Source: a virus
Length of the DNA stretch: 43,307 nt
Virus record (IMG/VR): IMGVR_UViG_3300046535_001348
Location: 1-43,307 of that record
Reading direction: 5' to 3' (one strand)
Under the pieces are notes generated by a model that ran no database searches, was not told where the DNA came from, and saw only the letters and a program-made list of their open reading frames with translations. This document shows positions 6,677-19,376 of this stretch, piece by piece (within the stretch, counting starts at the first letter, position 1; each line of letters begins with the position of its first letter). The position numbers and the translations under genes were made by a program.

Positions 6677-6965
6677 CGCCCCTCCCCGGCCGCAACTGCG
6701 GCGGTCGCGCCTCGATCTGCTGTTTTGGCCGGATCGGGCCGGCGGTTTCGGTTTTGATGATCTCGACCGAGAGCCCGCGGGCGATCAGATCGCGGATCGC
6801 ATCGCGCAAGTCGGCCGCCGCCAGCCGGTCGGCGCGCGGCGGGCCGATTGCGGTAATCCGCTCGGCGACGAGCACCCGGCGCAGCAATTGCGCGACGACG
6901 GTTTTCCCCTGGTTTTCGGCGCCCCGGATTTCGACAAAGAGCTGCGGCGCTTTGGTGCCGGCCAT
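6663..6965 (-). CDS. Small P-loop protein (100 aa)
   Basis: A 100-aa protein with a Walker A motif, GAENQGKT, at residues 15-22 (consensus GxxxxGK[ST]) after a hydrophobic strand (LFVEI). No clear Walker B is seen, and the chain is too short for a full ATPase. The C-terminal half (ADLRDAIRDLIARGLSVEII) looks alpha/beta. It may bind nucleotide as an oligomer or be a reduced NTPase. It is the second gene of the early operon, its ATG touching the TAA of the Cro-like gene. Confidence 0.75.
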   Translation of the reverse strand: MAGTKAPQLFVEIRGAENQGKTVVAQLLRRVLVAERITAIGPPRADRLAAADLRDAIRDLIARGLSVEIIKTETAGPIRPKQQIEARPPQLRPGRGDVRD

Positions 6966-7174
6966 TAGGCGGGCTCGCGCGCGGCCAGCGCCGCGGCATG
7001 GAAATCGTTTGGCGTGATCCCGGTAATCCGGCGCAAGGTTTCCGCCACTTTCGGGGTCGGCACGGCCAGGCCGCGGCGCAGCCGGGAGATCGTCGAGCGA
7101 TTGACCTCGGCCTGGCGGGCGAGCTCGCGATCGTCAATCCCTTTGTCCGCCATCCAGGCGGCCAGCGTCCGCAT
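6965..7174 (-). CDS. Cro-like XRE transcriptional regulator
   Basis: A 69-aa helix-turn-helix protein with little outside the DNA-binding domain: DDRELARQAEVNRSTISRLR is the HTH. Its small size and place as first gene of the early leftward operon, facing the repressor gene, fit a Cro-type regulator. ATG at 7174 is preferred; a GTG at 7201 would put the first codons inside the operator. There is no Shine-Dalgarno before 7174, and the mapped promoter would start transcription almost at the ATG, so the mRNA may be leaderless. Confidence 0.85.
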   Translation of the reverse strand: MRTLAAWMADKGIDDRELARQAEVNRSTISRLRRGLAVPTPKVAETLRRITGITPNDFHAAALAAREPA

Positions 7175-7181
7175 AAAAACA

Positions 7182-7212
7182 ACATTGTGCGTGTCACGCA
7201 CATTTAGTCAAC
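7182..7212 (-). promoter_or_regulatory. Putative early leftward promoter
   Basis: Read on the minus strand, TTGACT (7212-7207) is a good -35. The -10 region is weak (CAATGT at 7187-7182, 18-base spacer). The spacer is almost filled by the perfect palindromic operator, so repressor binding would block polymerase. The start site would fall at about 7175, next to the Cro-like ATG. Confidence 0.5.
7186..7202. promoter_or_regulatory. Immunity operator 1, perfect palindrome
   Basis: TGTGCGTGTCACGCACA is a perfect 17-bp palindrome (8+1+8). The half-sites TGTGCG and CGCACA with N5 between recur at 8173 and 18129, and with one mismatch at 7265. A lone half-site TGTGCG lies at 7220. It overlaps the early leftward promoter. 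The XRE proteins encoded on either side are the natural ligands. Confidence 0.8.
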
Positions 7213-7264
7213 AAGATATTGTGCGTCCCGAGGTCTTGCTCGACCAGGCTTGCGTTTTATCGTG

Positions 7265-7281
7265 TGTGCATGATACGCACA
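7265..7281. promoter_or_regulatory. Immunity operator 2, one mismatch
   Basis: TGTGCA-TGATA-CGCACA matches the operator form with one changed base. It lies 27 bases upstream of the preferred repressor start (7309) and covers an alternative ATG at 7270, so it could mediate autoregulation of the repressor gene. Confidence 0.65.
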
Positions 7282-7308
7282 GGCCGGAATAAACAGGGAT
7301 TTTCCCGG

Positions 7309-7602
7309 ATGCGGCGCGTCTTTTTGCGTGCATGGCGAAATCACCACAGACTGAGCCTTGAGACGGTCGCCGCCGAAATCGGCATGCACCATTCAAATCT
7401 GAGCCGGATCGAGCGCGGCTTGCAGCCCTATGACGAGGCCTGCCTTGAGGCGTTGGCGAAGGCCTACAACTGCACCCCGATCGATCTGCTCGGCCGGGCG
7501 CCAGGCGACCCCGAAGGCATATGGTCGATCTGGGATGGCTTGCGCGAGCCGCAGCGCCGCCAGGCGACGGCGGTCTTGCGCGCGCTGCGCGACGCCGGTT
7601 GA
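7309..7602 (+). CDS. XRE-family repressor (CI-like)
   Basis: A 97-aa protein with an N-terminal XRE helix-turn-helix (about 13-38: LSLETVAAEIGMHHSNLSRI) and a short C-terminal part containing DPEGIWSIWDGL and a closing helix (QRRQATAVLRALRDAG). This pattern is seen in small alphaproteobacterial phage and prophage repressors that lack a LexA-like autocleavage domain. It faces the Cro-like gene across the operators and is therefore the best lysogeny repressor candidate. ATG at 7309 has AGGGAT upstream; an in-frame ATG at 7270 would add 13 residues. How it would be inactivated on induction is not visible. Confidence 0.82.
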   Translation: MRRVFLRAWRNHHRLSLETVAAEIGMHHSNLSRIERGLQPYDEACLEALAKAYNCTPIDLLGRAPGDPEGIWSIWDGLREPQRRQATAVLRALRDAG

Positions 7603-7775
7603 GGCCCCGGCAAGCGCCTCGGGCATTATGCGGCACACCCCAAAGCGCCGGCGCATTAATCAACAACAGGTCTATGCGCAACCTCTGCGCGTCCTGTACG
7701 TTGCCGGACGCTCGGAAGGCCGGCCCGGTCGCGCCTCCCGCAAAATGCCACGATGCAAAGAGGTACGCGCCAACA

Positions 7776-8036
7776 ATGGCAGTCCTGCCGTTTGCCCGGC
7801 CAAAACCCAAGCCGCGGCGGATTAGCGAGCTCGTTGCCCGCGCCGACAGCACCAGCGCCGACGAGCTGCGCGCCGAAATCACCCGGGTCATGCGCGAATT
7901 TCTCGCCGACAGCGACGCCGCCGGCGCCGAGGAGGCCCGCCAGTTGCGCCGCCTCGTCTTTCTCGGGGCGCTGATTAGCCGGTTTCTCTTCTCGGCCGAC
8001 GGGCTGTTGCCGCGCGACCCCGATCACCGGATTTGA
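7776..8036 (+). CDS. Hypothetical protein (86 aa)
   Basis: An 86-aa protein with a proline/arginine-rich start (MAVLPFARPKPKPRR) and then two predicted helices (SADELRAEITRVMREFLADS, EEARQLRRLVFLGALIS). No family is recognised. ATG at 7776 has AAGAGG about 12 bases upstream; an in-frame ATG at 7674 (after ACAGG) would add 34 residues containing several cysteines. It lies between the repressor and the rightward promoter and could be co-transcribed with the repressor. Confidence 0.6.
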   Translation: MAVLPFARPKPKPRRISELVARADSTSADELRAEITRVMREFLADSDAAGAEEARQLRRLVFLGALISRFLFSADGLLPRDPDHRI

Positions 8037-8162
8037 CCGCGGCCTTAAATCGTTAAGTAACAAGGCGCGCCGCCCGATCGGCTGACGGCCGACGCACAGG
8101 TCGGGCCGCAACCGGGCGGCATTCGCGCTAATTCCGCCGTTATATGTGCGCAAAATCACCGC

Positions 8163-8193
8163 TTGCCATTGTTGTGCGTGACGCGCACATAAT
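8163..8193 (+). promoter_or_regulatory. Putative rightward promoter
   Basis: TTGCCA (8163-8168) and CATAAT (8188-8193, five of six to TATAAT), 19 bases apart. Operator 3 occupies the spacer and the first base pairs of the -10. It precedes the gene at 8223, which has AAGGA as Shine-Dalgarno. Confidence 0.6.
8173..8189. promoter_or_regulatory. Immunity operator 3
   Basis: TGTGCG-TGACG-CGCACA, with exact half-sites. It overlaps the rightward promoter. A lone half-site TGTGCG lies 28 bases upstream at 8145-8150. Confidence 0.78.
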
Positions 8194-8222
8194 TCGGGAG
8201 CACGTTCACTAAGGACGCCCCG

Positions 8223-8435
8223 ATGCCCCGCCGCACGCCGTACCGCCCCTATGCCGAAAGTCTCGCCGCCGAGCTCGCCCGCTTGCGCGCCGCCCCCGAC
8301 GACAACAGCGAAATCCCGACGGCCGAATTTTCCCGCCGCCTCGCCGCGGCGGCGACCCCTTTCCCCTGCGCCGCCGCGTTGGCCGAGCGGCGGCCGGACT
8401 TTTCCCCCTCGGCCGCAAAGGACCGCACGTTATGA
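8223..8435 (+). CDS. Hypothetical protein (70 aa)
   Basis: A 70-aa protein, first gene of the rightward operon, with AAGGA nine bases before the ATG. The sequence is arginine- and alanine-rich and mostly helical (YAESLAAELARLRAAPDDNS). No family is recognised. Its stop overlaps the HU-like start by ATGA. Confidence 0.65.
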   Translation: MPRRTPYRPYAESLAAELARLRAAPDDNSEIPTAEFSRRLAAAATPFPCAAALAERRPDFSPSAAKDRTL

Positions 8436-8725
8436 ACAAGGCCCAAATGGTCGCAACGATCCGCGCCGGCGACCGCGCAACCATCCCCCACGCCCAGGCC
8501 GAGGCGATCGTCGACGATCTCCTCGCCGGCATCGCCCAGGCCGTCGTCGCCGGGACAAGGGTCATCTTGACCGGGGTCGGCTATCTGACGACGCACCCGA
8601 CCAAAGAACAGCCGGGGCACAACCCCCGCACCGGCGAGGCGATCACGATCCCGGCCGGCCGGCGCGTCAAATTCAAGACGGCCGGGGCGCTCAAAGAGCT
8701 CCTCGCGGCCGAGGCCGCACAGTGA
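8432..8725 (+). CDS. HU/IHF-family DNA-binding protein
   Basis: A 97-aa HU-like protein. It starts MNKAQMVATI, has the dimerisation core VDDLLAGIAQAVVAGTRVIL, then the beta-arm region with RTGEAITIPAGRRVKFKTA, and ends in the usual helix (ALKELLA). The RNPxTG arm tip of HU is replaced by a Pro/Arg stretch (GHNPRTGEA). It should bend DNA and could assist integration, excision, replication or packaging. It is under the repressor-controlled rightward promoter. Confidence 0.93.
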   Translation: MNKAQMVATIRAGDRATIPHAQAEAIVDDLLAGIAQAVVAGTRVILTGVGYLTTHPTKEQPGHNPRTGEAITIPAGRRVKFKTAGALKELLAAEAAQ

Positions 8726-8892
8726 CGCTCGCCAAGGCGCGCCTCGTCGCCGCGAGCCTGCGCTACAAAACCCCGCGCACCCTGCGCGACGCAGCGCTCG
8801 CCCTCATCGAGCACGGCGAATGGGAAAAGGCGCAGCGCCTCGCCGACCGGGCGACCGCGATCGAGCGGCGCCTGTTGGCCCGCGCCGCATGA
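8722..8892 (+). CDS. Hypothetical protein (56 aa)
   Basis: A 56-aa helical protein (TLRDAALALIEHGEWEKAQR then LADRATAIERRLLARAA). The start is GTG at 8722 overlapping the HU stop as GTGA, the same coupling geometry as the ATGA junctions elsewhere. The two-helix pattern resembles a single tetratricopeptide-like hairpin. No function is known. Confidence 0.6.
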   Translation: MTLAKARLVAASLRYKTPRTLRDAALALIEHGEWEKAQRLADRATAIERRLLARAA

Positions 8893-9167
8893 CGGCCCAT
8901 GCCCTCGACCCCGCCGACGAGGCGGTCACCGCGATCATCGAAAGCCTGGTGCATGAGCTGCGCCGCGCCGATCGCCGGCCGATCGCCCTCGTCTGTCGCG
9001 GCCAGCTCGCCCCCTACCATGAGGCGGCGGTCGCTTGGGGCTGGCTCGCCCCGACGCCGAGCGACAAAAGCCGGCTGATGGTGACCCCGATCGGCCGCTC
9101 GATCCTCGGCCAGGCCGGGCCGGAACCAAACCATCTGCCGCCACCCTTGGCCGTCGGCCTCGCCTGA
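8889..9167 (+). CDS. Hypothetical protein (92 aa)
   Basis: A 92-aa protein. After a helical start (DEAVTAIIESLVHELRRADR), a segment with PYHEAAVAWGWLAPTP and SRLMVTPIGRSIL reads like a short winged-helix wing (compare transcription-factor-like YxxTxxG patterns), but the match is weak. It overlaps the previous gene by ATGA and is the last gene before a strong terminator. Confidence 0.65.
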   Translation: MTAHALDPADEAVTAIIESLVHELRRADRRPIALVCRGQLAPYHEAAVAWGWLAPTPSDKSRLMVTPIGRSILGQAGPEPNHLPPPLAVGLA

Positions 9168-9175
9168 CCCGCCAC

Positions 9176-9209
9176 CCCCTCGGGCCTTTTCCAGGCCCGA
9201 GGGGTTTTT
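9176..9209 (+). terminator. Rho-independent terminator
   Basis: A 12-bp perfect stem (CCCCTCGGGCCT / AGGCCCGAGGGG), loop TTTCC, followed by TTTTT. It lies nine bases after the stop at 9167 and should end the short rightward transcript before the ParB-like gene. Confidence 0.92.
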
Positions 9210-9246
9210 CGCATTTCCACTGCCACTTGACAGGAAATCCGCCCAA

Positions 9247-11673
9247 ATGCCCAGGAAAGCCGCCGCCAAAACCGCCGCCACAATTGCCCCCGCCGGGGCC
9301 GAGGACGAAGCCAAGGCAATCGCCGACATGGAGCGCGACATGCCGGCCGAGCTCAAGGCGATCAACACCGCGAGCATGGTCGCCGCCCCGCATGACGCCG
9401 GCGCCGACATTCAATACCGCGAGCTGCCGCTCGGCCGGGTCAGCCCGTCGCCGCTCAACCCGCGCCGCTCGCGCTCACAAGAGAGCATCGAGAGCCTCTC
9501 CCGCTCGATCGTCGACAAAGGCGTCTTGCAGCCGATCCTGGTGCGCCCCGATCCGCAGCTCGACATCGAGGGCGAGCACTTCGAGATCATCTTTGGCGAA
9601 GGCCGCTGGCGCGCCGCCGCCCTGGCGGTTGCCGACGGCCGGCTGCCGGCCGAATTCGCGATCCCGGCCCGGGTGCGCGACTGCACCGACGACGAGCTCG
9701 TCATCCTGGCGGCGATTGAAAACCTCGACCGCGAGGACATGGAGCCGCTCGACGAGGCCGAGCTCTATGCGGCGCTGAGGCCCCGCGTCACCCCGGCGGA
9801 CGGCGAAACCCGCGAGGCGGCGATCGGCCGGCTGGTGCATGTTTCCGAGCGCACGGTGTTCCGCCGCCTGGCGCTATTGCGCGCCATTCCCGAGGTCAGA
9901 GAGAAGCTGCGCGAGGGCGAGCTCGACCTCGGCCAGGTGCAGGCCTTTGCCCTGGCGGGCGAGGACCGGCAGCGCGAAATCCTGGCGCAGCCCGAGGATT
10001 ACGACGCCGGCGAAATCCGCCACCTGGCGCTGCAAAGCCGGGTAACGCTCGACCGGGCGGTCTTTGACCTCAAGCTCTATGAGGGCGAGATCGTCGACGA
10101 CACGGTGACCGGCCAGCGGTTTTTCGCCGACCAGGCGCAATTCGACCGGCTGCAATTGGCCGAGCTCGAAGCCCGCGCCGAGAAGCTGCGCGGCCGCAAA
10201 AAATGGGGTTGGGTCGAGGTTATCGCGCCCGACAGCGACCGCAGCTTTTGGCAGGACTATGCGGCGCAGGACCCCTCGACCTATGAGGAATATAAGCCGG
10301 GCGACCCCGACGCCGGCGCGGTCGTCTTGATCGAGCGCTATTCGCGCCCCGCCAAGATCACGGTCAAGGCCCCGGTGTTGCGCAAGGCCGACGCCGATGC
10401 GCGGGTCAAGGCGCGTCGCGCCGCCAACAGCGCCCCCAATGGCGATGGCGCGGCCGAGGCCGACGCCGCGCGCGACCCGCTCTCAAAGACGCAGCAGGCG
10501 CAACTGCATGCCGCAAAGACGCGCACCCTGCGCCGCATGGTTGCCGCCGACGACGCGCTGGCGATGGCGCTGGCGGTCCTCGGCCTCCTCGGCGCGGGCG
10601 AGGTCCGTCTCGGCGGCGAAGGCCTGCCGATCGGCCCCCTGGCCGAAAACCGGATCGACAGTCCGCCCGAAAATCTCACCGCGATCGACGAGCTCCTCGA
10701 CCTGGCGCGCGGCATCGCCCATCCGCGCGACAAAAAGCTGCTCGCCGGCGATTGGCGCTCCCGCGGGCTCGACCCCCAGGCCGACACCGCGCGCGCCTGG
10801 CTCGACGCGCTGATGGAATTGCCCGGCGCCGAGCTGCGCCGGCTCTTTGCCCTCCTCGTCGCCGAGCGGGTCGGGTCGTGGTATCTGCCGGACAACCAGG
10901 GTTGGCGCGGCCGCGCCGAGGTCGGCGATACCCCGCTCGCCGAGGCGATTGCCGGCTGGCCGGTCGAGGAGGGCTCGCCGCAATCCCGCCAGGTCGACCC
11001 CGCCGATTGGGCGCCGGTCATCGCCGCGGGCCGGGAATTTTTCAAGGGCTACCCGAAAGACCGCCTCCTCGACCTGGCGCGGCTCGCCGCGGTCAAGACC
11101 GGGCAACAACACAACCTCGCCGGCATCCGCAAGGGCGAGCTCGTCGACCTCGTCGCCGCCCAGCCGCCCGACACCTGGACCCCCGACCTCTTCCCCGAAT
11201 GCCGCTTTCAATCCGAGGAGGCTGCCAGGAAGGCCGTCGCCGGCGGCGGCGTGCCGCTCGCCGCGCTCTATCCGCACCACGCCGAAGCGGCGCCGGCAGA
11301 GGCGCCGAAGGCCGACCCCGATTGGGAAGAGCTGCGCCCGCTCCTCGCCGCCGGCGGCGAGTTGAAGCGCGACGGCAAGACCAAGCGCTATTACGTCGAC
11401 GGGAATGGCAGCTTTGCCGACGCGCAGGTTAGGCGGCTTGAGGGTAAGGGCCTCATCCGCCGCGTCGGGGTCGACACCTACGCGATCGCCGCGATCGCCG
11501 GGCTCACCCCCGAGCCCGAGCCGGCCGCCGAGGAGGCGGCCTCGCGCCACGGCGCGGAGGAGCGCCGGATCGGCCAGGTATGGCATGGCCTAACAGCTCG
11601 CCCGAAAAGACGCCACGACGACGCACCTCGCGCACCGGCCGGCGAGCCGGCCGAAGCGGAGGCCTCGGCATGA
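9247..11673 (+). CDS. Large ParB/Spo0J-like protein
   Basis: An 808-aa protein. The ParB N-terminal domain spans about 55-160: NPRR at 71-74, then GEGRWRAA at 118-125 in place of the classic GERRxRA box, and AAIENLDREDMEPLDEAE at 155-172. A helix-turn-helix region follows near 190-212 (VSERTVFRRLALLR). The long C-terminal part has no firm match; around 725-765 it looks like a winged helix (KRYYVDGNGSFADAQVRRLE). No ParA is encoded here. Phage ParB-like proteins can be CTP-dependent clamps, nucleases or regulators; which applies is open. AGGAAA precedes the ATG. Confidence 0.88.
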   Translation: MPRKAAAKTAATIAPAGAEDEAKAIADMERDMPAELKAINTASMVAAPHDAGADIQYRELPLGRVSPSPLNPRRSRSQESIESLSRSIVDKGVLQPILVRPDPQLDIEGEHFEIIFGEGRWRAAALAVADGRLPAEFAIPARVRDCTDDELVILAAIENLDREDMEPLDEAELYAALRPRVTPADGETREAAIGRLVHVSERTVFRRLALLRAIPEVREKLREGELDLGQVQAFALAGEDRQREILAQPEDYDAGEIRHLALQSRVTLDRAVFDLKLYEGEIVDDTVTGQRFFADQAQFDRLQLAELEARAEKLRGRKKWGWVEVIAPDSDRSFWQDYAAQDPSTYEEYKPGDPDAGAVVLIERYSRPAKITVKAPVLRKADADARVKARRAANSAPNGDGAAEADAARDPLSKTQQAQLHAAKTRTLRRMVAADDALAMALAVLGLLGAGEVRLGGEGLPIGPLAENRIDSPPENLTAIDELLDLARGIAHPRDKKLLAGDWRSRGLDPQADTARAWLDALMELPGAELRRLFALLVAERVGSWYLPDNQGWRGRAEVGDTPLAEAIAGWPVEEGSPQSRQVDPADWAPVIAAGREFFKGYPKDRLLDLARLAAVKTGQQHNLAGIRKGELVDLVAAQPPDTWTPDLFPECRFQSEEAARKAVAGGGVPLAALYPHHAEAAPAEAPKADPDWEELRPLLAAGGELKRDGKTKRYYVDGNGSFADAQVRRLEGKGLIRRVGVDTYAIAAIAGLTPEPEPAAEEAASRHGAEERRIGQVWHGLTARPKRRHDDAPRAPAGEPAEAEASA

Positions 11674-12203
11674 GCGCCACCCTCGCCGAGCAGATCGCCG
11701 CGGTGCGCGACAATGTCGAGCGGCTTGAGGAGATCGAGCGCAACGCCGGATTTGAGCCGCACCGCCTCGCCGGGTTGCGCGCCGCCCTCGCCACCTCGCT
11801 CGCCCGCGAGGCGGCCGAGGCGGCGGCCGCAAGCGGGCCGATCGCACTCGACGACGCGCGCAACCTCGTCCAAATGTGGGCCGCCTCGACCGCCTGGCGC
11901 TGGGGCGAGGCCGGCCGGGTCGCCAGCTTGATCGACGAGCTCGGCGCGGCCCGCCTGGTGCTGGCCGACGCCGCCCGCGTCGTCGAGCTGCTCGACGAGC
12001 TCGCCGCCGCCCGCCTGGTGCTGGCGACCTATCGCGACCGGGTGCGCGAGCTCGCCCCGGCCGAGGGCGGCGAGGCCGACGACTTCACCGAGATCGCTGG
12101 CGCCCGGCTCGACCTCGACGCCGCCGGGGCGCGGATCGCCGCCGCCCGGGAGGAGGTCGCCGCCGGCGCCGGGCCGCCGGGCGAGTTGAGGTTCAAGCTA
12201 TGA
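11670..12203 (+). CDS. Helical hypothetical protein with internal duplication (177 aa)
   Basis: A 177-aa, alanine-rich, almost entirely helical protein, probably coiled coil. A 20-residue unit is duplicated in tandem: LIDELGAARLVLADAAR and LLDELAAARLVLATYRD. The DNA repeats with a 60-base period at 11932-12025. No family is recognised. It starts with an ATGA overlap on the ParB-like gene and is followed by another ATGA overlap, opening the run of small genes up to the integrase. Confidence 0.65.
   Translation: MSATLAEQIAAVRDNVERLEEIERNAGFEPHRLAGLRAALATSLAREAAEAAAASGPIALDDARNLVQMWAASTAWRWGEAGRVASLIDELGAARLVLADAARVVELLDELAAARLVLATYRDRVRELAPAEGGEADDFTEIAGARLDLDAAGARIAAAREEVAAGAGPPGELRFKL
11932..12025 (+). 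repeat. 60-base tandem duplication inside a coding region
   Basis: About 34 bases starting TCGACGAGCTCG and ending GCCTGGTGCTGGC occur at 11932-11965 and again at 11992-12025, differing at only a few bases. The exact 60-base offset keeps the frame of the host gene. Confidence 0.75.
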
Positions 12204-12454
12204 GCGCCGGGCGCGCGATCATCCTGCCCGAGGAGCCGCTCGGGCCGCGCCTCGTTTGGGTGCGCCTGCCGAGCTGCGACGGCTGCCCGGCGCTGCGCCT
12301 CAAAATCTGGCGCGACGCCGCCGGCGTCCACACCAGCGCCGATTGCGATGCGGCGCCGAGCGCGATCGGGCTGCCGCGGCCGATCGCGACCTATTGGCGG
12401 CTCGACCGCCACCCGCCCGGCTGGTGCCCGGCCGATCAGGGAGGCGCGCCATGA
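12200..12454 (+). CDS. Small cysteine-containing protein (84 aa)
   Basis: An 84-aa protein with CDGCP near residue 27 and two further cysteines (ADCD, GWCP), a spacing that could bind a metal. Strands such as GPRLVWVRLP and a central RLKIWRDAAGVHTSA suggest a small beta fold. No family is recognised. ATGA overlaps join it to both neighbours. Confidence 0.65.
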   Translation: MSAGRAIILPEEPLGPRLVWVRLPSCDGCPALRLKIWRDAAGVHTSADCDAAPSAIGLPRPIATYWRLDRHPPGWCPADQGGAP

Positions 12455-12717
12455 CCCGGCAGACAGGGCAAACAACCACACAGCTCCGCAACGCGCCCGC
12501 GGGCGCAACCTTTGTCTGGCCGGTCGACAGCACCTATTACCCGCGCGCCCTGGCCCGCTATGTCGGCCGGCGCGATTTACGAATTGTCGGGCCATCAGCC
12601 CTTACCGATGGCCGTTGCCAAGGGCTTACGCCCGAGCGGCTGATCCTCGACCACGCCGTCCGGCTGACGCCTCGCCAACAACGCGAGGTCGACATTTTGG
12701 AGACGATGCGCCGATGA
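12451..12717 (+). CDS. Hypothetical protein (88 aa)
   Basis: An 88-aa protein. A central segment (TFVWPVDSTYYPRALARYVG then RRDLRIVGPSAL) is followed by a loop and a helical end (TPRQQREVDILETMRR). No family is recognised. It is joined by ATGA overlaps on both sides. Confidence 0.62.
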   Translation: MTRQTGQTTTQLRNAPAGATFVWPVDSTYYPRALARYVGRRDLRIVGPSALTDGRCQGLTPERLILDHAVRLTPRQQREVDILETMRR

Positions 12718-12917
12718 CCGCAGCCCCCGATCCGCTGCTCGACCGCATCCTTTACGATTGCAAGCTCTCGGCCGGGCTGATGCCGATCACGATCGTCGTC
12801 AAGGACGCCGCCGAGGCCGCCCGCGGCCGCCAGCTTTTGAAGGGCCGGCACAACAACGCCGCGATCGATTTCGCGACCGAGGCCGAGCTGCGCGCCAGGC
12901 CGGTGCGCAATGGCTGA
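12714..12917 (+). CDS. Hypothetical protein (67 aa)
   Basis: A 67-aa protein. LLDRILYDCKLSAGLMPITI precedes VVKDAAEAARGRQLLKGRHN, giving a helix-strand-helix look. No family is recognised. Its end overlaps the next start by eight bases. Confidence 0.6.
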   Translation: MTAAPDPLLDRILYDCKLSAGLMPITIVVKDAAEAARGRQLLKGRHNNAAIDFATEAELRARPVRNG

Positions 12918-13464
12918 GCCGGCGCTCCACTGGGAGCTCGCCCACCACTACCATTGCGCCGCGTGCGGCTGGATTGCCCCGCAATCCGATTTTGCCGTCG
13001 AGCCCGAGCGCTGCCCCTGTTGCGGCGCCAGGCCCGACGGCAGCGACCCCTGGCCGACGGGCACCTATCGCGCGCAACACGGCTGGACATGCTTTCATTG
13101 CGGCGAGACATTCCATTCGGAGGCCCGCGCGCGTGACCATTTCGGGGCCGACCCGCAGGCCGAGCCGGCCTGCATAATCAAGGCCGAGCTCGGGCTCGTC
13201 GTCGCGCTGCGCGAAGCCGAGGACCAGCTCGCCCGCTACCGCGACGAGGACAGCGACAAAGACCGAGAGCTCGCCCGCATGGCCGGCGACCACGCAACCG
13301 CGCTGCGCCGCGAAGAGGAGCAAGGCTATTCCCGCGGGCTGCGCGACGAGCGCGCCCGCGCGCTGCGGATCATCGCCAGGATAAAGGCCCCGATCAGGAA
13401 CGGCGGCGCCCGCAACGCCTGCGACCAGATCGCCGCCGACCTACGGATCGGCAGCGATGGCTGA
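12910..13464 (+). CDS. Zinc-ribbon-like protein with coiled-coil tail (184 aa)
   Basis: A 184-aa protein. The first 55 residues hold a CxxC...CxxC ribbon (CAACGW at about 17, CPCCGA at about 35). A second motif, WTCFHCGETFHSEARARDHF at about 59-78, looks like a C2H2-type finger that ends with an acidic Asp/His pattern. The rest is a charged coiled coil (VALREAEDQLARYRDEDSDK and onward). The GETF...A..HFG pattern recurs in alphaproteobacterial phage proteins of unknown role. It may bind nucleic acid. Confidence 0.75.
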   Translation: MAEPALHWELAHHYHCAACGWIAPQSDFAVEPERCPCCGARPDGSDPWPTGTYRAQHGWTCFHCGETFHSEARARDHFGADPQAEPACIIKAELGLVVALREAEDQLARYRDEDSDKDRELARMAGDHATALRREEEQGYSRGLRDERARALRIIARIKAPIRNGGARNACDQIAADLRIGSDG

Positions 13465-13658
13465 CCGGGTTGCCAAACAGGATGGCGGCCGCCGGGTCGC
13501 CGCGATCCTTGAACACCTTTACGGGCTCGGTCAGCTCGACGCGACCTCGATCCTCGTCGTCGCGCTCGGCGAAGTTGTCAGCCAGGCCGCCGAACCCCGA
13601 TGACGCATGGGACGCGATCCTCAAGGCGATCGACGCCGAACGCGACAAAGATGGCTGA
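13457..13658 (+). CDS. Small gene read across an apparent +1 frameshift (about 66 aa)
   Basis: From ATG 13457 the frame gives MADRVAKQDGGRRVAAILEH and continues through ILVVALGEVVSQAAEP, then ends at CGA-TGA (stop 13601-13603). One base over, the following bases read DDAWDAILKAIDAERDKDG to a TGA at 13656-13658 that overlaps the next gene by eight bases. A +1 shift at CCC-C just before the stop would join the two. The 202-base span is one more than a multiple of three. A C inserted in the CCCC run, or +1 recoding next to a stop, are both possible. Without a shift the product is 48 aa. Confidence 0.55.
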
Positions 13659-14034
13659 CCCGCTCGCCACCTTGGCCGAGATCGCGGCGCGCTACCGCTT
13701 CACCGAGCGCCAGCTTCGCCGGCTGTTGCGCCGTCATAAAATCCCGGTGTTGCACACCGGCCAGCAAATCCGCTTTGATGCCCTCGCCCTTCATGCGCTC
13801 GACCTGGCCTTGCGCCGATGCCCCTCACCGTCCGCCGCCGTCGCGACACCGGGACCCTTGCGATTAGCGGGGTCCTCGCCCTCCCCGACGGCTCGCGGGT
13901 CCGCGTTCGCCGACGCGCTCAATCTGACGACCCCCAGCTCGCCCGCGAAGAGGCCGCGACCTACGAGGCCCAGCTCCTCCGCGACGCCTGGCTCGGTCGT
14001 CGCCCTGTTCGCGCGACCTTCGGCGAGGCGGTGA
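13651..14034 (+). CDS. Excisionase-like helix-turn-helix protein
   Basis: A 127-aa protein. Residues 1-55 (LATLAEIAARYRFTERQLRR then LLRRHKIPVLHTGQQIRFD) form a MerR/excisionase-type winged helix, as in phage Xis proteins. The C-terminal tail is Ser/Pro/Ala-rich. The last 217 bases overlap the integrase gene in another frame; since the integrase N-terminus reads normally, both frames appear to be coding. The tail segment GSAFADALNLTT looks protein-like rather than random. It probably directs excision with the integrase. Confidence 0.7.
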   Translation: MADPLATLAEIAARYRFTERQLRRLLRRHKIPVLHTGQQIRFDALALHALDLALRRCPSPSAAVATPGPLRLAGSSPSPTARGSAFADALNLTTPSSPAKRPRPTRPSSSATPGSVVALFARPSARR

Positions 14035-14924
14035 AATCCTACCTCCTCGCCGAGGACCGCAACCCCGGCACCAAGGCCCGGCTGCGCCGCCTGTTGCTGG
14101 CGATCGGCGACATCGAGCTCGCCCGCCTCGACCTGGCCGCGATCGATCGCGCCAAGCTCGCGATGTTCCCCGGCAGAACGCCGGCGCCGGCGACGGTGTT
14201 GCGCGACATGCTGGCGCCGCTGCGCGCCGTCCTCAACCACGCCGCCCGGCGCGGCTGGTGCGAGGCGCCGCGCTTCGAGCTGCCGAAGGTGCGCACCGGC
14301 CGGACCCGCTACCTGACCCCGGAAGAGGCCGAGCAACTCGTCGCGGCCGCGGCGCCGCATCTGCGCCCCTTGCTCCTCTTCCTGATCGGCACCGGCGCCA
14401 GGCTATCGGAGGCGCTCGGCCTCGATTGGCGCCACGTCGACCTGGCGGGCGGCAATGGAGCTGGGCGCGCGATCTTTTGGGATACCAAGGGCGGCGGCCG
14501 CCGGGTCGCGGCGCTGCCGCCGCGGATCGTCGCCGAGCTCGCCGGGCTCGGGCACCGCGAGGGTGCGGTCTTTGGCTGGCGGCCGCGCGGCGCCGGCCGC
14601 GGCCCGCTGGTCGCCTATGCCGATAAAGAGCGCCAGGCCGGCGGCCAGATCAAGACCGCCTGGCGCGGCGCGCTGCGCCGCAGCGGCCTCGATGCGAGCC
14701 AGCCGGGGCTGACCCCGCACGATCTGCGGCACACCTACGCAAGCTGGCACTACGCAAGGCACCGCGACTTGCTGCGCTTGAAGGCCGAGGGCGGCTGGTC
14801 GTCGACGGCGCTGGTCGAGCGCTATGCGCATCTGATGCCGGCCGGGCTCGCCGGCGAGATCGAGCGGTTTCTCGGCGAGCTCGGCCCCCAACCGCTGACC
14901 GCGTCGGGAGGCGCGCCGCCATGA
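13818..14924 (+). CDS. int: Tyrosine-type phage integrase
   Basis: A 368-aa tyrosine recombinase. The N-terminus (MPLTVRRRRDTGTLAISGVL) is an arm-binding-like domain, and the core-binding helices lie at about 66-150. The catalytic residues can be seen: Arg195 in GTGARLSEAL, Lys224 in the DTKGG turn, His301 and Arg304 in PHDLRHTYAS, Trp327 in GGWSS (in place of the usual second histidine), and the nucleophile Tyr336 in ERYAHLM. It should integrate the phage at the tRNA-Thr gene, since the attP-like site begins about 220 bases downstream. Confidence 0.95.
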   Translation: MPLTVRRRRDTGTLAISGVLALPDGSRVRVRRRAQSDDPQLAREEAATYEAQLLRDAWLGRRPVRATFGEAVKSYLLAEDRNPGTKARLRRLLLAIGDIELARLDLAAIDRAKLAMFPGRTPAPATVLRDMLAPLRAVLNHAARRGWCEAPRFELPKVRTGRTRYLTPEEAEQLVAAAAPHLRPLLLFLIGTGARLSEALGLDWRHVDLAGGNGAGRAIFWDTKGGGRRVAALPPRIVAELAGLGHREGAVFGWRPRGAGRGPLVAYADKERQAGGQIKTAWRGALRRSGLDASQPGLTPHDLRHTYASWHYARHRDLLRLKAEGGWSSTALVERYAHLMPAGLAGEIERFLGELGPQPLTASGGAPP

Positions 14925-15073
14925 CCAAAGAGGAACACGATCTGATGGTCGCGATCGGCATCGCGCTCTATACGCTGCTCGGCCAGATGCCGGCGAGAGA
15001 GCGCCAGGCGACGCAGGAGGAGCTGTTCAACGCGCTGGCCGCGATCGGCGCCGAGCCGATCGAGGAGCGATGA
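14921..15073 (+). CDS. Small helical protein (50 aa)
   Basis: A 50-aa protein starting MTKEEHDLMVAIGIALYTLL and ending in a second helix (QEELFNALAAIGAEPIEER). The ATGA overlap with the integrase supports its reality. It has no recognisable family and is the last gene before the attachment region. Confidence 0.6.
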   Translation: MTKEEHDLMVAIGIALYTLLGQMPARERQATQEELFNALAAIGAEPIEER

Positions 15074-15299
15074 CACGCTGGCGACACGGCGATGCGCGCC
15101 CCGCGGCCAACCCGTTGACCGAAAAGGCCCGATCCGGCCCCACCCGCGCCCTTGGTAAGGGAGAGGTCGAAAGTTCAATCCTTTCCGGCAGCACCAGCAT
15201 TTCCGCCAGTTTCCAGCCCCTCGCGCCCCTCCCGGCATACCGTTGCGTGCCACGAAATGCCCGGGAATACCCGGTCGCGTGACACGCTGGTGACACGGC
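15071..15299. repeat. Direct repeats flanking the att core (candidate integrase arm sites)
   Basis: TGACACGCTGGCGACACGGC at 15071-15090 recurs at 15280-15299 with one mismatch. Each copy holds two GACACG units about ten bases apart, one helical turn. They lie 57 bases left and 83 bases right of the att core, the arrangement expected of arm-type sites bound by the integrase N-terminal domain. Confidence 0.65.
15148..15196 (+). other. attP: attP core: 3' half of a tRNA-Thr(GGT) gene
   Basis: The bases read as a perfect tRNA 3' half. Anticodon loop TTGGTAA has anticodon GGT at 15154-15156. The 3' anticodon stem is followed by the AGGTC variable region. The T stem-loop (GAAAG, TTCAATC, CTTTC) is intact, then acceptor strand CGGCAGC, A and CCA at 15194-15196. 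No D arm or 5' acceptor strand (expected GCTGCCG) lies upstream, so it is not a functional tRNA gene. It fits an attP core that restores the host tRNA-Thr 3' end on integration. Confidence 0.85.
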
Positions 15300-15313
15300 G
15301 CCAGCGCGGGCAC

Positions 15314-15346
15314 AAAAAAGGCCGGCGCGGGTCACCCCGGCCGGCC
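15314..15346 (-). terminator. Leftward terminator closing the late region
   Basis: On the minus strand GGCCGGC-CGGG, loop GTGA, CCCG-C-GCCGGCC, then TTTTTT. The stem is 11 bp with one bulged C and a GNRA loop. It would stop late transcription before it crosses attP and enters the integrase gene antisense. Confidence 0.85.
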
Positions 15347-15631
15347 GGTCGAAATCGCGTATAACCCCCCTACGGAGTCCGCCAGATGGGGTCAAATTTC
15401 CCAGGCAAAATGATACGCCGAATTTGCCGACCCCCAGCGCCTCGCCAGAACGCCGGCAAATGGCATCCGAAACGTAAGCCAGCGATACGATCGGGCGCTT
15501 TTGCGACCCCTCGAATATTGTCGAGGGCGGCCGCTAATTACTCGACGGCGGCGCTTTTAGCCTCTGCCGCGGGGTTTCCGGGGCGCCGCCGAGGCGTTTA
15601 GCCTATCCGGCGGCCGGGCGCTTTATTTGGC
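15347..15631. other. Noncoding stretch with hairpins between terminator and late genes
   Basis: No convincing gene on either strand. It holds a hairpin CCCTCGA-N6-TCGAGGG at 15508-15527, related short motifs GGCGCTTTTAGCCTC (15550) and AGGCGTTTAGCCTAT (15592), and GCCGCC/GGCGGC arms around the latter. It may be part of the att region or the untranslated 3' end of the late transcript. Confidence 0.5.
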
Positions 15632-15862
15632 CTAGTGTTGCGTCGGATCGCCGATCCGGCCGCCATCCGGCGCGAGCGGGATCTTGACCCGGTCGATATG
15701 GGTCGCGCGGCACCGCGGCGAGGCCCTGCCATGCGCGACCGCCAAGGCGAGGGTTAGCGTCCGCATCCACTCGGCCACGTCCTCGGCCGGGCCGCGCTCG
15801 CGCACCTGGACCCGGCCGCCCGCCACCCCGCATAGGTGGCAATCATACTCGACCTCGATCAT
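15632..15862 (-). CDS. Hypothetical protein with N-terminal CxxC (76 aa)
   Basis: A 76-aa protein starting MIEVEYDCHLCGVAGGRVQV. The CHLC pair near residue 8, with later His and Cys residues (HGRASPRCRATH), could bind a metal. AEDVAEWMRTLTLALAVAHG is helical. Short phage proteins of this layout are known without a function. It is the most downstream gene of the late region, after the lysis genes. Confidence 0.7.
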   Translation of the reverse strand: MIEVEYDCHLCGVAGGRVQVRERGPAEDVAEWMRTLTLALAVAHGRASPRCRATHIDRVKIPLAPDGGRIGDPTQH

Positions 15863-15871
15863 TCCCCCGCT

Positions 15872-16144
15872 CTAGCCTCCCTGGCAGCCGTGCTTGCGGC
15901 ACGCGAAATTCGAGCACTCGCGGGCCTTGTCCGCCCCCGGGCAATCGGTCCTGCGGCCGTCGAGGAGGGCCTTAAAGCGGCCCTCAAGCTCGCCGGCGGT
16001 CTGTTGCAGCTCGACGGCGAGCGCCAGCCATTCGCGAACAATGTGCGGGTTGAGGTCATCGAGCGCGGTCAGCGGGTCGCCGGCGCGCTCCCCGGCCCAT
16101 TGCGCCATGAGGCGCAGCCGGTCGGGCACCGCGGTCGGGATCAC
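15872..16144 (-). CDS. Hypothetical protein, start uncertain (90 aa or more)
   Basis: A protein of at least 90 aa from GTG at 16144, with helical IVREWLALAVELQQTAGELE and a cysteine-rich end (DCPGADKARECSNFACRKHG). The frame stays clearly coding upstream (TELRLGPDEKDPRARLDLER), but no ATG, GTG or TTG is found there. A CTG at 16207 overlaps the upstream stop exactly as the ATGA junctions do (CTGA), so the true product may be 111 aa with a CTG start. No family is recognised. Confidence 0.65.
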   Translation of the reverse strand: MIPTAVPDRLRLMAQWAGERAGDPLTALDDLNPHIVREWLALAVELQQTAGELEGRFKALLDGRRTDCPGADKARECSNFACRKHGCQGG

Positions 16145-16203
16145 CCGCTCAAGATCGAGGCGGGCGCGCGGGTCTTTCTCGTCGGGGCCGAGGCGCAGCT
16201 CGG

Positions 16204-16530
16204 TCAGGGCTTGACCCCGGCGAGCCTGGCGTCGCGGTCGCGATAGAAGGCCGCCAGGCCCTCATGGCGCCCGGCGCAGGCAACGAGCGCCGCGCGATCG
16301 CCAGCCCATAGGCGGGCTACGGCGCCGGCCGAGAGCGCCCCCTCGGCGATCTCAACGGGGTTGGCGCAGAGCTCGACCAGGCCCGCCGGCGGCTGCGCCT
16401 CGGGGAGGCTCAGTTCCGTCACCGGCTTTGCGTCCAATTTCGGCAATGCGCTGCACGAGGTCAGGATCGAGACAAGCGCGAGCATCGCTGCGCGACGACA
16501 AGCGGGCGATAACCTGCAACTGATCGGCAT
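16204..16530 (-). CDS. Rz1-like outer-membrane spanin lipoprotein
   Basis: A 108-aa protein with an N-terminal hydrophobic signal and lipobox LTSC (Cys26), then Pro-rich sequence. Its first 179 bases lie inside the 3' part of the Rz-like gene in another frame, the classic Rz/Rz1 arrangement. The lipidated o-spanin joins the i-spanin across the periplasm and fuses the membranes in the last step of lysis. A start at the internal Met16 (16485) is also possible. It is longer than most Rz1 proteins. Confidence 0.82.
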   Translation of the reverse strand: MPISCRLSPACRRAAMLALVSILTSCSALPKLDAKPVTELSLPEAQPPAGLVELCANPVEIAEGALSAGAVARLWAGDRAALVACAGRHEGLAAFYRDRDARLAGVKP

Positions 16531-16771
16531 TGTGCGTCTCCACCTTTAGAAGAGCGGCGGCGACGAGCTCGCCCTGTTTTTGCGAAGCGACGAGCTCGTC
16601 GCGCCGGCGCTCATGTTCGCGTGCGGTTTTGGCCTCGTACTCAGCGACGACCGCTGCGACGGCGCGATGCTTCTCGACCTCGATAAAGGCCGTCAGCCCG
16701 CCGGCGGCGAGGAGAAAGACGACGAGGCCGACCCCGAACTTTGCGGCGAGGGCGCCGATCATGCCCGACAT
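16352..16771 (-). CDS. Rz-like inner-membrane spanin
   Basis: A 139-aa protein. One N-terminal membrane segment (about 11-29, FGVGLVVFLLAAGGLTAFI) is followed by a charged periplasmic coiled coil (EYEAKTAREHERRRDELVAS and beyond), which is the i-spanin layout. The C-terminus ends Pro/Gly/Arg-rich. ATG at 16771 lies 13 bases inside the end of the transglycosylase gene. It works with the overlapping o-spanin. Confidence 0.82.
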   Translation of the reverse strand: MSGMIGALAAKFGVGLVVFLLAAGGLTAFIEVEKHRAVAAVVAEYEAKTAREHERRRDELVASQKQGELVAAALLKVETHNADQLQVIARLSSRSDARACLDPDLVQRIAEIGRKAGDGTEPPRGAAAGGPGRALRQPR

Positions 16772-17682
16772 GACACCGCCCCGCCCCAGCTCCGAAAGAT
16801 CGACTGGTATTGCAGCTCGATCCGCTTCGGATATTCGCGGTTTTCCCGGGCATTCGAGGCCGAGCGGCTGGTGTAGCGCTCGACGTGGCCGAACCAGCGC
16901 GACGGGTCGCACCCGGCCCGCTCGCGGCAGAGCGCGCGGTCCTTTGCAATCCAGCCCTCGCCGCCATTGTAGCCGGACAGCACAAAGGCCCAGCGGTCGC
17001 ACTCGCTGGCCGGCGGCACCGCGTTGACAAAGCGGCCCTTGTAGATGTCGCGGTCATAGCGGACCAGACCGCGGATCGCCCAGCTCGGGTTAAGCGGCGC
17101 GGCGCCGCCGAGCTCGGGATAGCGACGGCTCATCGCCTCGGCCGTCGACGGGATGAATTGCGCCAGGCCCGCGGCATAGATCGAATGCGCCGCCGGCCGC
17201 CAGGCGCTTTCGGCCTGGATTTGCGCGCCGAAGAGCGCCGTCGGCGCGCTCATGCCCCAAACGGCGCGGCTCTCGCGCAGCATCGTGCGCTGATAGGGCC
17301 GCGCCGGCGCCGGCACCAGCATCGGGTCGGGCTCGCCGGCGACCGGCGCGATCTCGCTCGCCGGCAGCCCGGGATCGGGCGGCGGCGGCGCCGGCAGCAC
17401 GACGACCGGCGCGATCGGCGTCTCGACGGCGCGCGGCGGCGCCGGCACCGCGGCCGCGGCCGGCGCGCCGCGGTAGAGCGGCGGCGTCGACCTGGCCGCC
17501 GGCGGCTTGCGCCGAGGCCGCGGCTTTTCGACAAACCGCTCGGGGATGATAAAGGCCGGCAGTGCGGCCGCCGGCAGCGGCCGCGACAGCGTCGCCGGCG
17601 AGCGCTCGGCCGCGGGCGGCGCCGGCCGCTCCCCGGCGCAAGCGGCGACGAGGAGCGCCGCCAGGATCAGGGCGCGGCGCAT
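16759..17682 (-). CDS. Lytic transglycosylase (SLT-like) lipoprotein, candidate endolysin
   Basis: A 307-aa protein. Lipobox LVAAC (Cys15) follows a short hydrophobic signal. A proline- and alanine-rich region lies at about 18-125. The catalytic domain starts at about 140: the glutamate in QIQAESAWRP (Glu158), then the GLAQFIPSTA motif at 172-181, and Gly/Tyr-rich SGYNGGEGW further on. It cleaves peptidoglycan glycan strands. Lying between holin and spanins it is probably the endolysin; a lipoprotein signal in that role is unusual. Confidence 0.88.
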   Translation of the reverse strand: MRRALILAALLVAACAGERPAPPAAERSPATLSRPLPAAALPAFIIPERFVEKPRPRRKPPAARSTPPLYRGAPAAAAVPAPPRAVETPIAPVVVLPAPPPPDPGLPASEIAPVAGEPDPMLVPAPARPYQRTMLRESRAVWGMSAPTALFGAQIQAESAWRPAAHSIYAAGLAQFIPSTAEAMSRRYPELGGAAPLNPSWAIRGLVRYDRDIYKGRFVNAVPPASECDRWAFVLSGYNGGEGWIAKDRALCRERAGCDPSRWFGHVERYTSRSASNARENREYPKRIELQYQSIFRSWGGAVSCRA

Positions 17683-18014
17683 CAGAGCGCCAGGGCAAGC
17701 GCCAGCATCGAGCCGACGACGACGATCGCGCGCCGGATCATCGAGCCGACAAAGACGTGCCCTTGCGGATCGTCCTTCGACCACATTCCGTCATTCACGT
17801 CGGCATCGAGCGCGTGCGGCCGCGCGTAGGGAAACAGCCAGCGGTCGAGCCAATAGCCGCCATAAGCCGCGGCCGCGACGAGCGCCGCCTTGTAGATCGT
17901 GACGACGAGCTGCGCCGGCGCGAGGATCGCGACGAGGACGATCAGCGCCACGGCGAGGGCGCCGGCGATCGCCATGCGGCCGTAAGTCTCCATAAAGGTC
18001 GGGGTCGGCGTCAT
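17682..18014 (-). CDS. Putative holin
   Basis: A 110-aa membrane protein with two or three hydrophobic segments: AIAGALAVALIVLVAILAP (about 15-33), VTIYKAALVAAAAYGGYWLD (about 37-56), and a C-terminal IVVVGSMLALALAL. The YKAAL...GYWLDRWLFPYARPH pattern is typical of a family of proteobacterial phage holins. ATG at 18014 is favoured (GAGG eight bases upstream); a GTG at 18023 has no usable spacing. Its stop overlaps the transglycosylase start by one base, so holin, lysin and spanins form one cassette. Confidence 0.85.
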   Translation of the reverse strand: MTPTPTFMETYGRMAIAGALAVALIVLVAILAPAQLVVTIYKAALVAAAAYGGYWLDRWLFPYARPHALDADVNDGMWSKDDPQGHVFVGSMIRRAIVVVGSMLALALAL

Positions 18015-18031
18015 CGAGGGCACCTCAAGCG

Positions 18032-18064
18032 AAAGGCGCCCGCCCAGCTCCGGGGTCGGGCGCC
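18032..18064 (-). terminator. Hairpin upstream of the lysis cassette, weak terminator
   Basis: On the minus strand GGCGCCCG (18064-18057) pairs with CGGGCGCC (18042-18035) across a 14-base loop and is followed by TTT. The stem is strong but the T-run short. It lies 5' of the holin gene and would separate lysis from upstream transcription, or act as mRNA structure. Confidence 0.45.
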
Positions 18065-18128
18065 GTTAAATGCCCGCCGGCAACCCAAGGCCGGGCGGTG
18101 AGCTGGCAGGGAAAGCGAGGCCCTTGAT

Positions 18129-18145
18129 TGTGCGGCGGACGCACA
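18129..18145. promoter_or_regulatory. Immunity operator 4, remote copy
   Basis: TGTGCG-GCGGA-CGCACA has both half-sites exact, as at the switch region 10 kb away. It starts at the end of a possible -35 (TTGATT, 18124-18129) and lies 39 bases upstream of the plus-strand gene at 18185. No strong -10 is visible (TCTAGG at 18151 is poor). Confidence 0.72.
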
Positions 18146-18184: not shown

Positions 18185-18442
18185 ATGTTAAAGACGATCC
18201 TGATCGCGACGTTGGCGGCCGCATCGATCGCCGCCGCCAACGCGCAACAACAGCCGTGCAAGGCGTATTACCCGCTCGGCGAGACTGTGCCGGCCGGGTG
18301 CGCCCGCGGGCTCGGCACCTGGAACAACGGCGCCGCCGTCGCCCCCTCGCAAAAGGTCGACGAGATGGACGTCTACCAGCGGACCTTTTTCGACAAAAAG
18401 CCGGCGCCGGCGCCGATCCCGCACTACGGCATCCCGCGCTAA
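18185..18442 (+). CDS. Small secreted protein, candidate moron
   Basis: An 85-aa protein with a clear signal peptide (MLKTILIATLAAASIAAANA, cleavage after AxA near residue 20). The mature part has two cysteines (QPCKAYYP, PAGCARGL), enough for one disulfide, and a Pro-rich end (KPAPAPIPHYGIPR). AAAGGGGAA precedes the ATG. It is the only plus-strand gene in the late half and is flanked by hairpins. The immunity operator upstream suggests repressor control. Effects on the host envelope, or roles in superinfection exclusion or lysis, are possible but unproven. Confidence 0.78.
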   Translation: MLKTILIATLAAASIAAANAQQQPCKAYYPLGETVPAGCARGLGTWNNGAAVAPSQKVDEMDVYQRTFFDKKPAPAPIPHYGIPR

Positions 18443-18467: not shown

Positions 18468-19376
18468 TTACTTGTGCTTGCAGCGGGTGCAGCCGCCGCT
18501 ATTCATCTGATAGATGCACCCGTTTGCGTTGCCCTGAACGCCGCCGCCGCTGAAGCCATCGGTCGCCCAGACACCACTGCCATTCGGGTCATTGAAGTCG
18601 TAGGTGACGGTGCTGTCGTCGGATGAAAAAGCGGGGCTGTCCACATAGATACCCATCCCCGGCGCGACATCGACGACATGCCAGGGCGTCACCGAAACCC
18701 AGGGGCACCAGCGCGCGATCCCGTTCTTCCGGTACGAGGCGGGAATGTGCGGGTCCACAGCAACCAGGTCGCCGGTCGAATACGCCAGAATATACTGACC
18801 AGGACCGCCGAACTCGGTGTGGGAGAAGGCAGGGCGCCGCGCGTCCGGGTAGTCTTGCGCGCCGCTGTCGGTGCGCCCGTTCAGCCACCCGTAATGGGTC
18901 TGGTCGGCCCAACCGTAGAGCAGTTGCCAGTGGCCGCTGCACCAGCCGCTACAAACAAAGGCCAGCCCGTTCGGCTGCACGTCATAGCCCCATTCCAGCA
19001 GGTTCGCCATCAGGGTGATGTCGTACCCGCCATTGTGGAACTTGTAGAGTTGGTAGGTATTCGACGAGGGGTCGAAATGATTGACCCAATACCAGCCCGT
19101 AGCGAGATTTAAGGTCGGCTGCACGAGTATCCCACCGCCGCCCCCCGCAATGACGCCGAGATTATACAGCCCCGAGCCGTCCACATTGGCGCACCAGATT
19201 TGCTGGCGATCCAGGCTGAGGAAGATGATCGCCGCCCCATTCCAGGCCCAGGCCGGATCGCAGCCGTGGTAGGGGAAATCGACGCGATTGGACCCATCCG
19301 CGTCACAGGTGAAGATAGTGTAATTACCGTCGCCGGAGACGAAGCGATCCGTGCCCCGGAAAGATGCGTAGCTCAT
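18468..19376 (-). CDS. PD40/TolB-like beta-propeller protein
   Basis: A 302-aa protein with several blade-like repeats of the PD40 type: YTIFTCDADGSNRVDFPYHG (about 19-38), AAIIFLSLDRQQIWCANVDG then SGLYNL (about 48-74), and later PAFSSDDSTVTYDFNDPNGS. Tryptophan content is high, and the C-terminus is Cys-rich (GGCTRCKHK). No signal peptide is seen. It may be a receptor-binding or carbohydrate-binding virion part, or an accessory gene. Its base composition looks less GC-rich than its neighbours, which hints at recent acquisition. Confidence 0.72.
   Translation of the reverse strand: MSYASFRGTDRFVSGDGNYTIFTCDADGSNRVDFPYHGCDPAWAWNGAAIIFLSLDRQQIWCANVDGSGLYNLGVIAGGGGGILVQPTLNLATGWYWVNHFDPSSNTYQLYKFHNGGYDITLMANLLEWGYDVQPNGLAFVCSGWCSGHWQLLYGWADQTHYGWLNGRTDSGAQDYPDARRPAFSHTEFGGPGQYILAYSTGDLVAVDPHIPASYRKNGIARWCPWVSVTPWHVVDVAPGMGIYVDSPAFSSDDSTVTYDFNDPNGSGVWATDGFSGGGVQGNANGCIYQMNSGGCTRCKHK

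Follow-up and report, generated by a model that had tools for sequence, protein, structure and literature searches.

Candidate operators of a lambda/N15-type switch, with a putative remote operator, in a temperate phage whose operator word covaries with two repressors

In phage lambda, the operator OR3 lies at the start of cI, the cI transcript from PRM is leaderless, and CI loops the DNA between OL and OR. In the immB region of the telomere phages N15 and phiKO2, three operators separate cro from the gene of the prophage repressor, two more lie on the far side of the latter gene, and the Cro protein of phiKO2 binds OR3 only (PMC4997575). In mycobacteriophages, the repressor also binds stoperators, asymmetric sites that recur in large numbers along the genome (PMC9283540). 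Homologues (36–42% identity) of the repressor described below, XRE2, occur in Rhizobium phage RHph_I1_23, Acetobacter phage phiAP1, and Synechococcus phage Ssp-JY42. These phages have the same divergent pair, labeled "cro-like repressor" and HTH regulator, in records that consist of annotation only, without operator features. In the literature covered, which was mostly open-access, no published description of the operators of this family was found.

The DNA analyzed here (the window, 43,307 bases) is one IMG/VR virus record that represents, by gene content, a temperate HK97-type phage. A transposable, Mu-like phage was considered and rejected, as HK97-type head genes and an integrase are present instead. 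The rightward arm encodes the repressor XRE2, an HU-type protein, a ParB-like protein, and the integrase; the leftward arm begins with xre1, with primase/helicase-type genes further left. At the other end of the record, the minus strand encodes the terminase, portal, major head protein, and tail proteins, then the holin, endolysin, and spanin; the two sets of minus-strand genes could form one long leftward lytic arm if the genome circularizes. The features of the switch and of the rightward arm are as follows:

6965..7174, minus: xre1, 69-aa Cro/C1-type HTH protein, Cro-like (HTH_3, E=4e-7)
7184..7211, minus: leftward promoter of xre1, TTGACT-N16-CACAAT; O1 covers its spacer and -10
7186-7202: O1, exact dyad, perfect 8+1+8 palindrome TGTGCGTG-T-CACGCACA
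7220-7225: O2, half-site TGTGCG, 34 bp from O1 and at the same position in relatives
7258..7263, plus: -10 element of xre2, TATCGT, 6–7 nt before the ATG
7265-7281: O3, one-mismatch dyad spanning the xre2 start codon
7270..7602, plus: xre2, 110-aa HTH protein, CI-like (HTH_31, E=3.8e-12 for the 97-aa version)
8145-8150: half-site TGTGCG upstream of the second operator, at 28 bp instead of the usual 34–35
8163..8168, plus: TTGCCA, -35-like box of the second (rightward) promoter; TTGAC at the same place in relatives
8173-8189: O5, exact dyad of the second, OL-like operator
8223..8725, plus: first genes of the rightward operon, a 70-aa ORF and the HU-type protein
9247-11673, plus: ParB-like protein, following the HU-type gene
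13818-14924, plus: integrase

The ParB-like protein of this early rightward operon has 808 aa and a ParB N-terminal domain. Among viral contigs, no relatives were found for it, for an 85-aa gene described below, or for the stretch 18468-19376.

Judging from sequence, these sites likely serve as operators in a lysis-lysogeny switch of the lambda/N15 type, and a further dyad at 18129 likely belongs to the same regulon as its third operator, remote from the rest. The first-pass annotation had described three exact copies of TGTGCG-N5-CGCACA (7186, 8173, and 18129), one copy with a mismatch (7265), and isolated half-sites at 7220 and 8145, and had judged the recurrence to be far beyond chance. A scan reproduced the four dyads at these coordinates, and both half-sites are present. 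No other site with zero or one mismatch exists in the 43,307 bases. With half-site frequencies taken from the rest of the window, 0.0007 exact dyads would be expected outside the switch and 0.05 one-mismatch dyads by chance; the exact dyad is absent from 1,209,864 bases (1.21 Mb) of other DNA, and the pattern read backwards has 0 matches in the window. These figures bear out the judgment that the recurrence exceeds chance. The 18129 site also falls within the non-coding share of the window, which is roughly 8%. Repressor sites away from the switch are a likeness to the stoperators (PMC9283540), but an L5-type stoperator system was rejected, since only four palindromic sites occur here.

At the switch itself, an independent promoter scan recovers TTGACT-16-CACAAT on O1. 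In nearly all relatives a TTG-type -35 box likewise stands a few bases before O1 (leftward) and O5 (rightward), which places the operator over the promoter spacer and the first bases of the -10. The promoter overlap that had been noted earlier stands; two points had been missed: two operators flank xre2, and both XRE proteins are probable readers of them. The site at 7265 is indeed a one-mismatch dyad, but it covers the likeliest start codon of xre2 (ATG at 7270, inside O3 and in frame), and the protein is probably 110 aa long instead of the 97 aa given earlier. In the -10, A stands at -11 in 23 of 25 aligned family members, and T at -7 in 20 of them. Because this element ends about 7 nt before the ATG in the aligned members, the xre2 mRNA is probably leaderless.

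Members of the XRE2 family are recognized by a C-terminal DPEGIWSIWD signature and occur in viral contigs, alphaproteobacterial genomes, and one betaproteobacterial MAG, as well as in named phages of Rhizobium, Sinorhizobium, Acetobacter, and Synechococcus; a class-wide search around Methylobacterium gave two matches only. A divergent small HTH gene (xre1) adjoins xre2 in most relatives. The 17-bp operator word is particular to each phage (e.g., TGTGCC, GTTGTA, GTTGCC, TGTACA, TATGCG, or GTTTGC): when searched for their own word, most phages have the switch sites and a second cluster behind xre2, whereas the words of other phages give almost no sites. The geometry is conserved. O1 lies approximately 10–30 bp from the xre1 start, O2 is usually a half-site 34–35 bp beyond it, and O3 lies over the xre2 start codon, 77–81 bp from O1 wherever it can be recognized as a dyad. 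The second operator consists of two dyads 34–35 bp apart in 17 of 22 relatives; that of the window has one exact dyad (8173) and a half-site 28 bp away.

Some members depart from this scheme. In two Caulobacteraceae MAGs (L011 and L012), xre2 and operator-like dyads are present, and an HTH xre1 neighbor was not found. In Sinorhizobium PBC5, Rhizobium RHph_I1_23, and one viral contig (L086, L087, and L020), TTTCAGTC-type direct repeats lie between the repressor genes and replace clear dyads; RHph-type members have direct TTCAGTCA repeats and differ in this from the window.

Which of the two repressors reads the word was addressed by covariation. XRE1 and XRE2 of one and the same phage have recognition helices that are much more alike (similarity 14.1, 26 pairs) than those of shuffled pairs (6.4 ± 0.96). 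The excess is found at helix positions 3, 4, 5, 7, 8, and 14 (z 5.3, 3.9, 2.9, 2.4, 6.5, and 4.3), the remaining positions reaching a z of at most 2.4; the match is thus mainly at base-contacting positions. The similarity of the operators correlates with that of each of the two helices (Mantel r 0.52 and 0.60, p=2e-4), with p-values that are optimistic because the phages are related and because the O1 choices and helix registers were partly set by hand. These correlations hold after one helix is partialled against the other. Covariation of Cro recognition helices with operators reportedly has a precedent in the work of Hall, Lefevre and Cordes in 2005. As the helices match each other and covary with the operator, XRE1 and XRE2 probably both read the same sites. 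Sharing is not to be assumed, since Cro of phiKO2 binds only OR3 (PMC4997575), in contrast to the look-alike helices found here. The sites, their conserved layout, the promoter overlap at O1 and O5, and this covariation are properties of the sequences themselves.

The AlphaFold2 model of XRE2 (pLDDT 84) comprises an HTH domain and two C-terminal helices. Foldseek matches it best, mainly through the HTH, to SinR, arbitrium-phage repressor complexes, and P22 C2. Neither the domain search nor the model of the 110-aa protein revealed a C-terminal domain for cooperativity or S24 self-cleavage. A self-cleaving peptidase domain would not fit into this structure, and induction would therefore more likely proceed through an antirepressor than through cleavage stimulated by RecA.

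Compared with lambda, the locus has a similar divergent pair of HTH repressor genes with operators between them, shared insofar as the covariation indicates; operators that, by sequence, overlap the lytic promoters; an OR3-like site at the leaderless start of the cI-type gene; and a second operator past that gene (8173) for the other arm, where the integrase lies. It differs in the absence of a large C-terminal or S24 peptidase domain from XRE2, in an O2 that is generally no more than a half-site, and in a putative extra operator 10 kb away. With the immB region of N15 and phiKO2 it shares short operators (16 bp in those phages and 17 bp in the window), a repressor without a self-cleaving peptidase motif, and the count: 3 + 2 operators there and in the relatives, 3 + (1 full + 1 half) in the window. 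The likeness is one of layout, as XRE2 matches general HTH families only. In addition, the N15 prophage is a linear plasmid whereas the window phage has an integrase, and the remote operator has no counterpart mentioned in the part of the N15/phiKO2 account considered here (PMC4997575). In topology the switch corresponds to lambda and in its 3 + 2 operator count to N15/phiKO2; the putative remote operator is an unusual addition.

Binding, the division of roles between XRE1 and XRE2, and the function and direction of the remote site are what we infer from this arrangement. The Cro-like XRE1 would be the first product of the leftward lytic arm, and the CI-like XRE2, made from a leaderless mRNA, would be encoded between two operators, with TTGTGCG as the common word of both proteins. 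O1, O2, and O3 (7186, 7220, and 7265) would control the divergent xre1 and xre2 promoters, and the second operator (8173 with the half-site at 8145) the rightward operon from 8223 through the HU-type and ParB-like genes to the integrase. In the lysogen, bound XRE2 would shut both outward promoters, and after induction XRE1 would compete for its sites. The 18129 operator would block a promoter in the gap that separates the lysis cassette from the 85-aa gene, most likely the promoter reading rightward into that gene. The features around it are the following:

16204-16530, minus: spanin (phrog_456, E=1e-6)
16759-17784, minus: endolysin (phrog_669, E=2e-42)
17682..18023, minus: holin, first gene of the leftward lysis cassette (phrog_1528, E=5e-28)
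18123..18128, plus: CTTGAT, -35-like box touching the remote operator
18129-18145: putative remote operator, exact dyad, intergenic, between two divergent units
18185..18442, plus: 85-aa lone gene with a signal-peptide-like start and no family match

The dyad ends 39 bp before the start of the 85-aa gene. Its inner spacer, GCGGA, is unlike those of the other sites, and for this reason a recent duplication of a switch site was rejected. In the plus direction there is the -35-like CTTGAT and no convincing -10; a promoter scan at 18129 found nothing, and the promoter scores of its flanks are within the range of random positions. The 85-aa gene has no match in phages or plasmids; a weak match in 1 of 397 genomes lies in a frame with stops and was not taken as homology. 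The available stretches of holin relatives contain neither the switch nor the 85-aa gene. No intergenic remote own-word dyad occurs in the long relative phage contigs (30–80 kb). A one-mismatch remote dyad at 13778 in one of the relatives (L008) was discounted because it lies inside an open frame, and a DNA pattern match to the extended remote site came from one contig without significant similarity to the window. One bacterial contig (L074) has a remote own-word dyad candidate.

On this evidence the first-pass proposal of a small repressor regulon is strongly supported as regards the operator set, through promoter overlap, the architecture of relatives, and helix covariation; the inclusion of a remote accessory gene is plausible, although either of the divergent units beside the site could be the target and no complete promoter can be recognized in either direction. 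The first-pass proposal had taken only the plus-strand gene into account. We lean slightly toward a third operator having been recruited at 18129, with the 85-aa secreted-like gene of the late region, or the adjoining lysis cassette, answering directly to the CI/Cro-type pair. That the site controls the 85-aa gene in particular has roughly an even chance.

Control of the leftward holin-endolysin-spanin cassette instead, silencing lysis in the lysogen, is unlikely but deserves consideration, as the dyad begins approximately 106 bp upstream of the holin start (18023) and ends on the minus strand in CACAAT, identical in sequence and place to the -10 of the xre1 promoter. However, this strand has no -35 at the expected place and a flank score near random, the CTTGAT box lies on the plus-strand side, and none of the long relative phage contigs has an intergenic own-word dyad outside the switch. 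The stretch from the holin to 18129 folds no better than shuffles. It is distinctly improbable that the site binds repressor without controlling a promoter, as a looping partner or titration site for the switch operators. No complete promoter can be recognized there, and the two operators 0.9 kb apart already resemble lambda OL and OR; but XRE2, at 110 aa with a short helical tail, offers no obvious higher-order cooperativity, the site sits precisely in the divergent gap, and relatives manage without it. A functionless chance match, with operators only at the switch, is very unlikely: the site is unique to this phage among the relatives examined, off-geometry with respect to the usual -35 box, and the product of a large scan, which selects rare coincidences, yet the 0.0007 copies expected per window fall to about 6e-5 with the intergenic condition, and none occurs in the 1.21 Mb.

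If the preferred reading of 18129 as a working operator holds, the switch would directly time a gene otherwise read as an autonomous accessory gene. The more general result is the in-step divergence of two repressors and their operator word across the family. With it, immunity words can be read off in a family of temperate phages, mostly alphaproteobacterial and for the most part undescribed, in which the operator and the two recognition helices make immunity groups predictable and testable. The matched helices in about 26 phages also form a natural data set for studying how a pair of repressors holds on to a common word as that word changes.

Finally, the leader behind O5 in the window (8190-8225) folds better than shuffles (z -3.0). 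In relatives, the leader directly behind the second operator mostly forms a small hairpin with the ribosome-binding site in its 3' arm, and the sequences differ; examples are L006 (10363-10391) and the stretches behind O5 in L031, L021, L009, and L014.
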